Source: Promethearchaeota archaeon
Lineage (GTDB): Archaea; Asgardarchaeota; Lokiarchaeia; Sigyniarchaeales; SOKP01
Reading direction: 5' to 3'
Length of the DNA: 46,435 nucleotides
Assembly: GCA_016839765.1 (NCBI GenBank)
Contig: JAEOTP010000014.1
Span: 1 to 46,435 of the forward strand
Position numbers and translations under genes: made by a program. The first letter of the stretch is position 1. Each line of letters begins with the position of its first letter. The notes under the pieces were generated by a model, which searched no databases, was not told the origin of the DNA, and saw only the letters and a list, made by a program, of their open reading frames with translations. This document shows, in pieces, positions 15,376 through 20,713 of the stretch.

Positions 15376-17340
15376 TCAGAGGTTTTTCAATTTTTCTTGT
15401 TCCTTTAACTTCTTTTTTTCTAATTTTTTCTTTTGTTTTTCTAATTTTTTTCGCTTTTTTGCTTCTAACTTCGCTTCTTTTTCTTTTTGTTTTCTTTCTA
15501 GTTTTAACCTTTTAAGTTCTTCTTTTTCTTTTTCAATAGCTTCTAGTTCTTCCCTTTCCTTTTCTAAACGTTCCCTTTCTAGTCTTAGCGCTTCTTCTTT
15601 CTCTCTTTCAATTTTTTCCAATCGTTCTTTTTCTAATTGTTCTTGGGCTAATCTTTCTTTTTCTATGCGAATTCGCTCGAGCCGCTCTTTTTCTTTTCTT
15701 TCCTTCTCTTGTCTTTCTCTCTCTTTTCTTTCCCGTTCTAATCGTTCTAATCTTTCTTTCTCTAGACGAGCTTTTTCTAATCGTTCTTTTTCCAATCGTT
15801 CTCTTTCCGCAATCTCAAAAATCCATTCATCGATTTTTCGAGTTAAATCCCCTTTTTCTTTTTCTGGTAATCCGAAGCCAGGTTCTTTTTTAATGTAAAT
15901 ATTGGCATATTTGCTCATTTCCCAGACTTTTTTCTGGTGTAATGTGGTTGCGCTCACACCCATTTGCCGAGCACTTTCTCTCGCGACTTCAAAAGCTTGT
16001 CCTATAGATTGCATTTCATAATTTTCTTCAATTACTTTTTTTAAATAGAGAAGGATTTGGTTAATATCTGCTTTAGGTGGAGGTGGTAACGGTTTAAGTT
16101 CGACAGTTACAGATTTTAAAGTGTCTAATTCAAAAGGTTCTGGTTCAATTTCTCTTATTTCCGGAGCTTCAAAATCGGAAATTGGAATTTCAATTTTATC
16201 TGAGATGATGGGCTGCTCTACGACGCTAGGTGATACAAAAGTTTTTTTTGCTTTTCTTTTAAATTGCATTGGCCAACTGATAAATGCATAAAGGCGATCT
16301 TCGGCTGAAACAAATAATGATGCTTTAGATGTACCTGAGTCTCGCTGTGAAGAGATTGGTGGTAGATCCGATCTTAAAATTAAACCCGCTTGTTCTATAA
16401 TAGAAAATAGATACATGGGATCAAATTCAAGATTAGAATAAATCATTTTCAAGGTTTTAATATTATCCTCAATAATGCTGAGATTTATTTGAGAGATGGT
16501 TCCCTCTAAAAGCGTATCTGTCGCGAATGTAATCCCTTCTAGTCCTGCTGTTGGATTGAGGTAAGATGAATCAGAGATAGCTTTCATTTTCTCAGAAACC
16601 AAAATTTGGTTATAAAAGTCCCTATGTGAACTTAGAATCTTATGACCCTCAATTGAGATGGGATATGAATCCTCCTTACATATTTCTTCCATCAACTCTA
16701 AAAATATATCCTTATGAGGTATGAAAACATTTCGCATCAAAGCACCTTTTATAAAGGTTAAATGATCCTCTGATTTATTAGATAAATCAACAGGAACTTT
16801 TATCACTTTCTCTGCGATAATTACGTCGCGATCCTCTTCTAAAGTGATATTTCCTGAAGTAGCCATTAGATCATAGACAAAGTCTGACAACACTAATCCT
16901 GTGAGGATTCTATGATCAGTTATATATTTGCCGGATTCTAATTCAAATTTAAGGAAATAATACCCGAGGCCAAATAAGTAATGAAGGGTTCCTTGATTGG
17001 TTTCAATTGAATAATCATAGCCACTAAAAAATATAACGATGTCCGTCTCTATTTTTGAGACGGGATGATGGACATAGGTTCCTAATGTGGGATACCCTAA
17101 TAAATCACTCCAACTAGGGATCATAAACAGCGAGTTGTTAGGATATAATTTATTTTCCATTTTCTGTTTTTCAATTCTTTCCTTTTCAATTCTTTCCTTT
17201 TCAAGTCTTTCCTTTTCAAGTCTTTCCTTTTCAAGTCTTTCTTTTTCAAGTCTTTCTTTTTCAAGGGCTTCTTTTTCAAGTAACTCTTTTTCTAACTTTT
17301 CTTCTTCCATCTCATCTTCATCCATTTTCTCAATCCCCAT
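15376..17340 (-). CDS. Large protein with charged single-helix arms around a globular core
   Basis: 654 aa. Residues 14-63 are a run of (E/K)RLEKE-type heptads and residues 511-654 a second, longer E/K/R-rich helix. Both have the charge pattern of stable single alpha-helices or coiled coils. Between them sit a mixed alpha/beta region (64-375, starting LYPNNSLFMIPSW), a Pro/Glu linker (376-432, with PLPPPPK) and a helical segment (433-510). No enzymatic motif, signal peptide or membrane helix was seen. The N-terminal repeats are near-identical at the DNA level and probably unstable in length. It may act as a cytoskeletal or scaffolding element; this is a guess from shape only. The core is not recognised. 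Confidence 0.7.
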   Translation of the reverse strand: MGIEKMDEDEMEEEKLEKELLEKEALEKERLEKERLEKERLEKERLEKERIEKERIEKQKMENKLYPNNSLFMIPSWSDLLGYPTLGTYVHHPVSKIETDIVIFFSGYDYSIETNQGTLHYLFGLGYYFLKFELESGKYITDHRILTGLVLSDFVYDLMATSGNITLEEDRDVIIAEKVIKVPVDLSNKSEDHLTFIKGALMRNVFIPHKDIFLELMEEICKEDSYPISIEGHKILSSHRDFYNQILVSEKMKAISDSSYLNPTAGLEGITFATDTLLEGTISQINLSIIEDNIKTLKMIYSNLEFDPMYLFSIIEQAGLILRSDLPPISSQRDSGTSKASLFVSAEDRLYAFISWPMQFKRKAKKTFVSPSVVEQPIISDKIEIPISDFEAPEIREIEPEPFELDTLKSVTVELKPLPPPPKADINQILLYLKKVIEENYEMQSIGQAFEVARESARQMGVSATTLHQKKVWEMSKYANIYIKKEPGFGLPEKEKGDLTRKIDEWIFEIAERERLEKERLEKARLEKERLERLERERKERERQEKERKEKERLERIRIEKERLAQEQLEKERLEKIEREKEEALRLERERLEKEREELEAIEKEKEELKRLKLERKQKEKEAKLEAKKRKKLEKQKKKLEKKKLKEQEKLKNL

Positions 17341-17542: not shown

Positions 17543-18823
17543 GTGTCTCAAGAACACCAGTTTGCATTTTCTTTATCTGAAATTGAAACAAAGCTTAAAT
17601 CAAGACCATTCTACGCTCTATTCTTCAATATAGTGCTACTTTCTATATTCTTTATTCAAGCATTAAGAGTTTATTTACCAGGAGTATATGTTGCAATGTT
17701 TCATGTTGTATTTGGGTATAATATCGTGGAAAATTTACTTATTTTGCTAACATTAATATTTTTTGTAATACCCGCCTTTACGAATACGATATGCAAGATT
17801 GTAGGCATTCGGAGGTTAATGATTAGTTCTATCTATATTATCGCTATAGCTCGACTCTTGATTGCTTTTCACTTACCAAATTTGTGGCAAACAATTTTAT
17901 CTGGGATTATTGTTACTACATATGGAATGTTTATTAGCACTTTTCTCACATTATGGATTAAGGATGAAAGCACCGATATTAAGCGCTATAATAAAATAAC
18001 TATGGTCATTTTCTCATTTTTATGTGCTTTTGTTCTTGATTATTTAATTCGAACAATTGGATTTTCTCAGGATATATCTTTATTACCCCCTGGATTCGAT
18101 GCTAATATATGGTATATTACTCAATATCTCTGGTTAATACTACAGATTCCTCTAACGATCCTTTGTATTTATTTTACGATATTGTATTTTCCCAGATTTA
18201 CTACGGCATCTGATTTAAACATAAAAGAAGAATCTAAAACGAAAAGAAAAAGGACTGTATATTCTTTAGTTTTTATGGGTATTGGGATGTTTTGGTTTCT
18301 ATTATTTAATATATTTCTATATCCAAATATGATAGCCCATTACACAGCAACCAGTTATTATATCAGTAATATCTTAAGTATTAGTGCTCTGATAGCTACA
18401 ATAATGATTTTATTATACGTAAATAGACGATTTACGTTCAGCATTAAAACATTAGTAATATTAAATGGCTTTATGATTGTGTCAGTTTGTTTGTTTTTAT
18501 TTTTAGGTACTACTCTTGCTTATGTGGCGGTGATTTTAATATCTATTTCATTGATTATTATGTATTTAAATTTCTTTATACTTTTATCCTATATGTCTAC
18601 TGTTGTCTATAAATGGGAAAAAGTGAAGACCATATCGAATATTTTCGCGATCGGACTTGTTTTCTATGTTTTATTTACAGTTTTTCATATTTTCACTACT
18701 GATTGGGCATACGTAATATCTGCTTTTAAAGGATATGGTCCTGTGATAATACTTATAGCCGTAATTATTTTTTCTATCTCTTCAGTTCTATCAATTCAAT
18801 TAAATCAAACAGGGAGGGAATAA
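17543..18823 (+). CDS. Twelve-helix membrane protein (partner of an EEP-fold enzyme)
   Basis: 426 aa, GTG start (VSQEHQFAF). About twelve hydrophobic segments are seen, beginning FNIVLLSIFFIQALRVY (28-44) and ending PVIILIAVIIFSISSVLS, with a charged cytoplasmic loop near 225-240 (EESKTKRKR). MFS-like spacing is possible, but no MFS signature was read. The gene stops 3 bases before the ATG of an endonuclease/exonuclease/phosphatase-fold gene, so the two are translationally coupled. In eukaryotic CWH43/PGAP2IP a polytopic membrane region is joined to the same type of EEP domain for GPI-lipid remodelling. This pair could be a split, distant analogue; that is a hypothesis and does not rest on recognised sequence similarity in this protein. 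Confidence 0.7.
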   Translation: MSQEHQFAFSLSEIETKLKSRPFYALFFNIVLLSIFFIQALRVYLPGVYVAMFHVVFGYNIVENLLILLTLIFFVIPAFTNTICKIVGIRRLMISSIYIIAIARLLIAFHLPNLWQTILSGIIVTTYGMFISTFLTLWIKDESTDIKRYNKITMVIFSFLCAFVLDYLIRTIGFSQDISLLPPGFDANIWYITQYLWLILQIPLTILCIYFTILYFPRFTTASDLNIKEESKTKRKRTVYSLVFMGIGMFWFLLFNIFLYPNMIAHYTATSYYISNILSISALIATIMILLYVNRRFTFSIKTLVILNGFMIVSVCLFLFLGTTLAYVAVILISISLIIMYLNFFILLSYMSTVVYKWEKVKTISNIFAIGLVFYVLFTVFHIFTTDWAYVISAFKGYGPVIILIAVIIFSISSVLSIQLNQTGRE

Positions 18824-18826
18824 AGA

Positions 18827-19636
18827 ATGAATAAAAGATTTAAAATCGTTTTAGCAATTGTACTAGTTTCACCGTTGGTTCTTTCAGTAATAACATTTGG
18901 CATTGGAGAATTTCCCAAAGAAGTTTCTCCTAAATCAGAATTAACTTTTATGACATATAATATTCATTTTGGTCAGGGGATGGATGACTTGCTTAATCTT
19001 GAGCGAATTGCTCAAAATATATTAATTGATGATCCCGATATCATTGGACTACAGGAGGTTGAGGTGGGTAGAATAACGTCTCAAGGTGTAGATATGGCAT
19101 TCTGGTTGGCAAAAAGGTTAGGTATGAATTATTATTATCGTAATCCTCTAGATAATTTGCACGTTATGGGAAATGCTATCCTGAGTAAATATCCAATCGT
19201 ATTAAGTAATAGTTATCCGCTTCCAAGTCTGCTACAAGAAAGAGTATTTATTCACTGTGTCGTAGAAGTTAGTGTAAGCATAAGGATCGATGTATTCTGT
19301 ACTCATATAGGAATCAGAACAGAAAATAAATCAGCTCAAATCGATTTTCTACTTGAAAAAATTACAGAAATTTCTACATCTCCTAAACGAGTATTAATGG
19401 GAGACTTTAACTTACAGAATGATACCTTAGAAATAGCAAATGTACTTAATTACTTTAATGATACAGCGATTGAATTTGGTGCAGCAATTCGTGCCCCCAT
19501 TGATTATATTTTTGCCACTGGATACCAAGATATTTTAGATTATCATGTAATCACAGATATGTTACCCGACATCGATTCTCCTACTGAATTTGGCTCTGAT
19601 CATTTACCTGTTGTTTCAATTATAGATTTCTCCTAA
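18827..19636 (+). CDS. Endonuclease/exonuclease/phosphatase (EEP) family protein, membrane-anchored or secreted
   Basis: 269 aa. The N-terminal 5-25 (FKIVLAIVLVSPLVLSVITF) is a signal peptide or anchor, so the enzyme faces outside. The full EEP active site is visible: N45 (TYNIH), E77 (LQEVE), N116 (MGNAIL), H160 (CTH), D193/N195 (GDFN), D226 (PIDYIF) and D258-H259 (GSDHLP). The fold covers DNase I, AP endonucleases, sphingomyelinases and inositol-phosphate phosphatases. Extracytoplasmic location and coupling to a polytopic membrane protein favour a phosphodiesterase acting on a lipid headgroup. Substrate is inferred only. Catalytic set intact. Confidence 0.85.
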   Translation: MNKRFKIVLAIVLVSPLVLSVITFGIGEFPKEVSPKSELTFMTYNIHFGQGMDDLLNLERIAQNILIDDPDIIGLQEVEVGRITSQGVDMAFWLAKRLGMNYYYRNPLDNLHVMGNAILSKYPIVLSNSYPLPSLLQERVFIHCVVEVSVSIRIDVFCTHIGIRTENKSAQIDFLLEKITEISTSPKRVLMGDFNLQNDTLEIANVLNYFNDTAIEFGAAIRAPIDYIFATGYQDILDYHVITDMLPDIDSPTEFGSDHLPVVSIIDFS

Positions 19637-19762
19637 TAATCTAAAGCTTAATATTACTATGGTATAAATTGAGGATTTAGAAGAATTAATTAAATTTTTA
19701 ATGATAAAACGTTCTAGTTCAGATTAAATTGAAATTAACATAGTGTATAATAATCGACAGAA

Positions 19763-20713
19763 ATGAAACGCTCAAGTCTAGCAAGTTTATTGGGGACTCT
19801 GAGTCTCGGGTTAATCATTAGTTCGTGTATTTTAAGCCCAAATCCAACGAATATTGGTCTTATTCCCCTCGGAATATTGTTTTCAATATTGTTAATATCC
19901 GGCATTCTTGGTTCTTATTTCGGAGTTCGAACTTCAAATATTTATTATCATTATTATATCTACTATCCCTTAACGCGGTTTTTGTTTACTTACTATGGAA
20001 TTATTTCTATAGTGATAAGTCTAATTGCGATGTGTGTTGATATATCAATATTGGGGATAACTAGTGAGATATTATGGATTTCAAGTGCTGTGATTGGGAT
20101 TGTAGCGGCAATATTGTATCGTAGCGATAAAGAAAAACACGTAGCGGCCAGTTATTCCCCAGAAGTTAGAGATCAGACTAGAGGGATGTATGATGCTACA
20201 TTTAAGATAGTTCTGTTTGGTGAACCAGAAGTAGCAAAAGCAAATTTAACTCAGAAATTCTTGACAAATCTATTTGTATCCGATTCAAAAATGACGATAG
20301 GTGTCGATTTTGAAGTTAAAAGTGCAGATGTTGGGGGTAAGAAAGTTAAATTACAATTATGGGATTTTAGTGGAAAGGAACGATTTAAATTTTTACTTCC
20401 AACTTACGTTCGAGGTGCTAAAGGAGGTCTTTTTGTTTATGATGCGAATAAAGAATCTTCTATCAGGAGTATTGATGAGTGGTTAACAATTATTCGAAAC
20501 AAGATTACACCAGAGGTCGAATTCCCCATAATAGTTGTGGGGATTATCTCAGATATGGTTAATAATCAACAGATTTCTGCTGAAGAAGGCATCAAAATTG
20601 CAAAATCACGAGGGCTAGATGGTTTTATTGAATGTAGTGTTGAAACAGGGGAGAATATCGAAGAAACATTTGAAGCTCTAGCACGATTAATCTTGGAAAG
20701 ATCCAACGCATAA
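19763..20713 (+). CDS. Membrane-anchored Ras-like pseudo-GTPase
   Basis: 316 aa. Residues 8-119 contain four membrane helices (about 8-24, 30-53, 73-92, 96-119). After a linker comes a small-GTPase fold (145-316): KIVLFG strand, switch-I Thr178 in MTIGVDFE, G3 WDFSGKE (200-206), RGAKGGLFVYDA, and G5 position CSVETG. The P-loop reads GEPEVAKAN (153-161) and lacks the GKS/T that binds phosphates; G4 is IISD rather than NKxD. The domain is therefore probably unable to bind GTP normally. Most small GTPases attach to membranes by lipids; a built-in four-helix anchor is unusual. It follows the EEP gene on the same strand after 126 bases, which contain a likely promoter of its own. Confidence 0.85.
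   Translation: MKRSSLASLLGTLSLGLIISSCILSPNPTNIGLIPLGILFSILLISGILGSYFGVRTSNIYYHYYIYYPLTRFLFTYYGIISIVISLIAMCVDISILGITSEILWISSAVIGIVAAILYRSDKEKHVAASYSPEVRDQTRGMYDATFKIVLFGEPEVAKANLTQKFLTNLFVSDSKMTIGVDFEVKSADVGGKKVKLQLWDFSGKERFKFLLPTYVRGAKGGLFVYDANKESSIRSIDEWLTIIRNKITPEVEFPIIVVGIISDMVNNQQISAEEGIKIAKSRGLDGFIECSVETGENIEETFEALARLILERSNA

Follow-up and report, generated by a model that had tools for sequence, protein, structure and literature searches.

What would an archaeal cell do with a Ras-like domain that sits behind four membrane helices and has lost most of its nucleotide-binding motifs? The question is raised by a gene at positions 19763-20713 (+) of a 46,435-nucleotide contig (JAEOTP010000014.1, the whole of which we call the window) from a Promethearchaeota archaeon of the Lokiarchaeia. 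By sequence comparison, the gene joins an anchor of four predicted transmembrane (TM) helices to a pseudo-GTPase derived from a soluble Rab-like GTPase of the same genome, with the switch face of the domain largely preserved and the motifs that contact nucleotide degraded.

Architecture and motifs of the fusion

The reading frame is unbroken from an ATG start and encodes 316 amino acids (aa). The Pfam Ras profile matches residues 148-311 with 130 bits (cut-off 21.6), and AlphaFold2 (37 rows) models a Ras fold at residues 144-316, with predicted local distance difference test (pLDDT) values mostly of 76-95; by this homology, the domain is a member of the Ras superfamily. Foldseek's top matches to the model, with target-normalised TM-scores of 0.85-0.89, are Rab8, Rab43, Sec4 and Rab11; the closest PDB relatives of the domain by sequence are Sec4, Rab14 and Rab11. 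Residues 1-146 have no Pfam match, and neither a longin nor a roadblock domain was found there. Hydropathy identifies four TM segments in residues 1-118, and AlphaFold2 predicts helices at 3-24, 33-56, 60-91 and 95-129 with pLDDT of about 40-60. The charges in the anchor (N-terminal MKR, R56 and R72 between the second and third helices, RSDKEKH past the fourth) suggest, by the positive-inside rule, that both termini are cytoplasmic (N-in/C-in). The first-pass annotation of this DNA had described a four-helix anchor joined to a pseudo-GTPase, and reading frame, Pfam, hydropathy and AlphaFold2 all bear this out.

In the order G1 to G5, the motifs of the soluble paralog (C67, locus L002) read MYDATFKIVIFGDAGCGKTT, MTIGVDF, DFGGEE, GGKADL and ECSSKT, and those of the fusion read MYDATFKIVLFGEPEVAKAN, MTIGVDF, DFSGKE, GIISDM and ECSVET. 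The fusion retains the switch-I Thr of G2 (T178 in MTIGVDF) and the DxxG of G3 (DFSG). Its G1 (GEPEVAKA) departs from the consensus GxxxxGK[ST], of which just the first Gly and the Lys survive, with Ala at the equivalents of both Gly15 and Ser/Thr17; G4 (IISD) and G5 (SVE) depart from [N/T/G]KxD and SxK, and Lys is absent from both. With G1, G4 and G5 degraded on a Ras fold, the domain is a pseudo-GTPase under the sequence definition, for which we follow Stiegler and Boggon (2017, PMC5593906), whose class i comprises pseudo-GTPases that do not bind nucleotide. GEPEVAKAN, WDFSGKE and the switch-I Thr had all been reported in the first-pass annotation and are present, although its statement that GEPEVAKAN stands in place of a GKS/T P-loop needs qualifying: the GKS/T is lost, but Lys159 stays, leaving a G1 that is crippled and not gone. 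The degraded G4 and G5 were not on its list.

Origin, preserved switch face and distribution

The soluble Lokiarchaeal GTPase in this genome is 175 aa long, starts MYDATFK, has the P-loop GDAGCGKTT and is 70% identical to the fusion domain. Its start Met persists inside the fusion, indicating that the fusion took in the complete gene and not just a piece of it. Between the two sequences dS is saturated (about 2.4), which rules out a recent duplication of the soluble gene, while dN is 0.21; the resulting dN/dS ratio (omega) of about 0.09 implies that the fusion domain has been mostly constrained since an old duplication.

The losses are unevenly placed. We took as family-invariant the 99 columns conserved at 97.5% or more among 41 canonical orthologs. 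The fusion has altered 9/14 of these in G1, G4 and G5, 2/35 in switch I, the interswitch and switch II, and 16/50 elsewhere (Fisher p=4e-5 for nucleotide motifs against switch face and p=0.06 for nucleotide motifs against elsewhere), p-values that are descriptive because the regions were defined once the degeneracy of G1 was already known. Paralogs with an intact P-loop and similar or greater divergence are the mirror image of the fusion, having 0-2 changes among the 14 nucleotide-motif positions and 3-17 among the 35 of the switch face. Judged by this pattern of residues, the motif loss is not random.

We considered the possibility that the fusion belongs to one common clade with the other pseudo-GTPases of the family (discussed below). 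A tree from all columns does group it with the MYDANFK clade (96/92). In trees without the motif columns, neither a joint pseudo-GTPase clade (approximately unbiased test, p 0.33) nor a pairing of the fusion with the soluble paralog (p 0.53) is rejected, so that these proteins may have one origin or several.

A search of Asgard genomes for the same fusion, as the first-pass annotation had proposed, found it solely in this genome (G000) and in a sister genome (G009), the metagenome-assembled genome (MAG) Yap2000.bin6.138. The second copy is 90% identical and has the same flanking genes; as this MAG is independent, an artefact of assembly is ruled out. Among the 24 genomes of the genus that were searched, the four-TM region is confined to these two and the remaining 22 are without the fusion. 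The soluble gene is nearly universal, with a strong match to the domain in 22 of the 24, two of which also bear the fusion. Wider searches for the anchor, across the order (79 genomes), the class (83) and the phylum (227), turned up no convincing relative, and viral contigs gave none. In no search, whether at the level of genus, order, class, phylum or contigs, did this architecture occur with a working P-loop, and the P-loop of the only other copy reads GEPEVTKAN, with Thr at the Gly15 position. That a multi-TM fusion is unusual in this superfamily, as had been proposed, agrees with our counts: among about 50 Ras-like domains inspected in this genome, most of which keep GxxxxGK[ST], the fusion alone has several TM segments, and of 142 collected GTPase frames, none of the 140 from relatives other than the two fusion copies has a multi-TM anchor.

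Two possible sources of the anchor were considered. It has weak matches in G027 (L220), G033, G035 and G053 (E 1e-4 to 0.01), and the three that were inspected (L034-L036) have no GTPase in frame and resemble chance hydrophobic matches. A four-TM protein encoded beside the genes of the other pseudo-GTPase clade matches the anchor only at E>0.09 and is absent from both fusion-bearing genomes.

Table 1. Features of the fusion gene, in window coordinates.
Feature	Position	Strand	Evidence
Fusion gene: four-TM anchor, linker and pseudo-GTPase, 316 aa	19763..20713	+	Open reading frame, Pfam, AlphaFold2, sister MAG
Four predicted TM helices, aa 3-24, 33-56, 60-91, 95-118	19763..20116	+	Hydropathy; AlphaFold2 helices (low confidence)
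Charged linker, aa 119-141	20117..20185	+	AlphaFold2 pLDDT < 50 at 122-140
Ras/Rab-like domain (aa 142-316); colinearity extends over the entire soluble paralog, start Met (MYDATFK) included	20186..20710	+	
Degenerate P-loop GEPEVAKAN, aa 153-161 (canonical paralog GDAGCGKTT); Lys159 retained	20219..20245	+	
Switch I block FLTNLFVSDSKMTIGVDFEVKS, same as in the soluble paralog; Thr178 retained	20258..20323	+	
G3/switch II DFSGKE-RFKFLLPTYVRGA (canonical DFGGEE-RFRFLLPTYVRGA)	20363..20419	+	
Degenerate G4 GIISD (canonical GGKAD)	20540..20554	+	
Degenerate G5 SVET (canonical SSKT)	20636..20647	+	

Recent selection and possible roles

Our best explanation, in which we have moderate confidence, is that the fusion would act as a membrane-tethered scaffold or decoy of soluble-GTPase origin, with constraint on it recently relaxed. 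As the sequence shows, a complete copy of a soluble MYDATFK-family Rab-like gene was joined behind the four-helix anchor and then lost G1, G4 and G5 while retaining the face formed by switch I, the interswitch and switch II. The product would be a non-cycling pseudo-GTPase, constitutively tethered to the membrane, and its preserved face, which is consistent with recruitment, may hold partners of the soluble GTPase there (an effector, an exchange factor or another regulator). Nucleotide-free mutants of the G15A/G17A type trap exchange factors. In a more specific version of the proposal, the fusion could be a decoy for exchange factors, as its P-loop Gly-to-Ala change falls at the position of the nucleotide-free Rho-family mutants; G15A/G17A laboratory mutants of this family are used as baits (PMC12644026). 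Support for this explanation comes from the kinship with the soluble paralog and the start Met carried over from it, the uneven placement of the losses, the low omega against that paralog, the Ras fold retained in the AlphaFold2 model, the independent occurrence in the sister MAG and the constraint on other pseudo-GTPases of the same family (omega 0.13-0.38).

Several observations, along with the late choice of regions mentioned above, weigh against the scaffold or decoy. The fusion is known from two genomes only, and its omega between them is indistinguishable from neutral, both over the whole gene (0.73, with a codon bootstrap range of about 0.42-1.4) and over aa 57-316 (1.03); the TM part gives 0.67 and the GTPase part 0.95. 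Nonsynonymous changes account for 34.5 of the 48 substitutions, compared with 32.9 expected in a neutral simulation, and the simulated probability of acquiring no stop is 0.21. The G009 copy has lost further conserved residues, namely the switch-I Gly (TIGVDF to TIVVDF) and the Arg of ERF (now EKF). For the same genome pair, omega is 0.02 in the soluble paralog and 0.16-0.28 in the neighbouring genes measured (nonsynonymous and synonymous counts, fusion against neighbours, Fisher p=0.004). Given its near-neutral rate since the two genomes split, the fusion may now be dispensable. It is possible, though we are inclined to doubt it, that this is a dying gene, an old and once-working fusion now drifting, whose frame is open merely because the drift is recent; that the genus's 22 remaining genomes lack it would fit. 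However, neither copy has a stop or a frameshift, the switch face has been kept relative to the nucleotide motifs across a longer history, and the rates come from a single species pair, at a range where omega is noisy. The idea of a merely decayed copy, which the first-pass annotation had named as the alternative, survives in part, from the near-neutral recent evolution, while the lack of a working-P-loop homologue with this architecture speaks for the original proposal. We read the data as long-term maintenance followed by recent relaxation of constraint, although with a single genome pair a burst of adaptive change would look the same as relaxation.

Divergence between the sister genomes is also uneven along the window. 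Positions 19600-19930, which run from the end of the upstream EEP gene across the gap into the fusion and take in its first 56 codons, are ~10% divergent within DNA that is otherwise ~2-3% divergent; the 56 codons themselves differ by 16%, compared with about 2% beyond. These codons and the preceding intergenic stretch are perhaps a recombination tract, and dropping the codons leaves the omega of the fusion still about 1.

Two other functions seem to us improbable. The domain might be an atypical nucleotide binder, with weak binding, or a slow or GTP-locked GTPase like the Rnd or RGK proteins, as Lys159, Thr178, D201 and G204 of the DxxG and the G4 Asp (D264) remain. The sequence argues otherwise: the changes of Gly15 and Ser/Thr17 to Ala, combined with a Lys lost from both G4 (GGKAD to GIISD) and G5 (SSK to SVE), would remove phosphate, Mg and guanine contacts, and the sister copy has Thr at the Gly15 position. 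Less probable still is that the fusion belongs to, or regulates, a complex with the CWH43/PGAP2IP-like membrane/EEP pair next to it, a functional tie suggested when the locus was first annotated. The pair does adjoin the fusion on the same strand in both fusion-bearing genomes, but 126 nucleotides separate them, and G002, G003, G010 and G011 keep the pair with other neighbours and no fusion beside it. The adjacency is thus local, the tie is unsupported, and we rejected a conserved linkage of the fusion with the upstream MFS-like and EEP genes.

Neighbours, relatives and known systems

The window pair (17543-19636) looks like the split form of a single membrane-EEP protein, its EEP part matching Pfam Exo_endo_phos_PGAP2IP. 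Elsewhere in the genus (L069, L070 and L072, with matches also in G010 and G016), the two parts form one protein of 684-695 aa with 12-13 TM helices and a C-terminal EEP domain, a layout that resembles eukaryotic CWH43/PGAP2IP. At other places in the window, a 768-aa protein (51-2357, -) matches a Piwi domain weakly, its 25.6 bits falling short of the 28.9 cut-off, and is possibly an Argonaute, and a 654-aa protein (15376-17340, -) has long charged repeats of the KERLEKER type at both ends and no Pfam match.

Other pseudo-GTPases occur in the same family. The MYDANFK group (L058, L175, L177, L178, L179 and L180, from G001, G004, G006, G013, G017 and G018) has GDDTEGKK or GDETEGKK at G1, VGI-I/T-P-D/E at G4 and lysine-rich tails; it is a conserved clade under purifying selection (omega 0.13-0.38) and does not show the preserved-switch pattern of the fusion. 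Recurring neighbours in the inspected loci encode small secreted-like, four-TM Cys-rich, pyridoxamine-oxidase-like, TetR and flavodoxin-like proteins. Two further members, L081 (1203-1973) and L091 (4764-5549), have a common basic N-terminal extension of 80 aa and a fusion-like pattern, with 7-11 of 14 nucleotide-motif and 1 of 35 switch-face positions changed. In this genome, three more Ras-like proteins (L210, L211 and L212; C51, C39 and C65) are without a P-loop (e.g. AAGWEPAKKDF), so that it has several pseudo-GTPases. A broader reading, which we offer as speculation and think unlikely, is that Lokiarchaea repeatedly convert copies of one soluble Rab-like GTPase into pseudo-GTPases that bring a candidate means of membrane attachment with them, be it four TM helices, a lysine-rich tail or a basic N-terminal extension. 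The results would be an Asgard layer of non-cycling, membrane-held scaffolds or exchange-factor traps serving Rab-like signalling, and no prenylation-type anchor for such proteins is known in these cells.

According to the available portions of two papers (PMC4915359, PMC10933270), Asgard Ras-like GTPases show neither prenylatable cysteines nor a polybasic tail or another membrane signal, and a TM fusion is not mentioned there. How these proteins reach membranes is where the locus may be of use: a GTPase fold fixed by TM helices, together with relatives bearing basic extensions, would give a direct handle on partners at the membrane, and the preserved face could serve as bait for proteins that partner the soluble, nearly universal paralog. 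Rarity and recent drift limit the importance of the fusion itself, and the family's other conserved pseudo-GTPases may, as a set, be the more important.

Among known systems, Miro (RHOT) combines a pair of GTPase domains with EF hands and a single TM segment at the C-terminus. Like Miro, the fusion has a small-GTPase domain tethered through the membrane, but it differs in having a single GTPase domain and four N-terminal TM helices, so that it does not fit the Miro plan. The longin- and roadblock-fused GTPases of Asgard archaea (Tran et al. 2024, PMC10933270) are likewise multi-domain small GTPases, but the fusion has a four-TM anchor in place of either domain. The pseudo-GTPases p190RhoGAP pG1/pG2 and CENP-M (PMC5593906) share the proposed scaffold or adaptor role; they are eukaryotic and are not anchored by TM helices, and the fusion is known from sequence alone. 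Nearer relatives are the family's own pseudo-GTPases, which have the same parent and a degenerate G1 and G4 (VGI-I/V/T-P-D/E) and differ in lacking TM helices, L058, L175, L177, L178 and L180 having the lysine-rich C-terminal tail and L081 and L091 the basic extension instead. The closest comparison is with the soluble MYDATFK GTPase itself (L002/L059 and orthologs), which the fusion matches across the full 175 aa and, without a difference, in the switch I block, yet the one is soluble, canonical in G1 and G4 and strongly constrained in the same genomes, whereas the other is anchored and degenerate.
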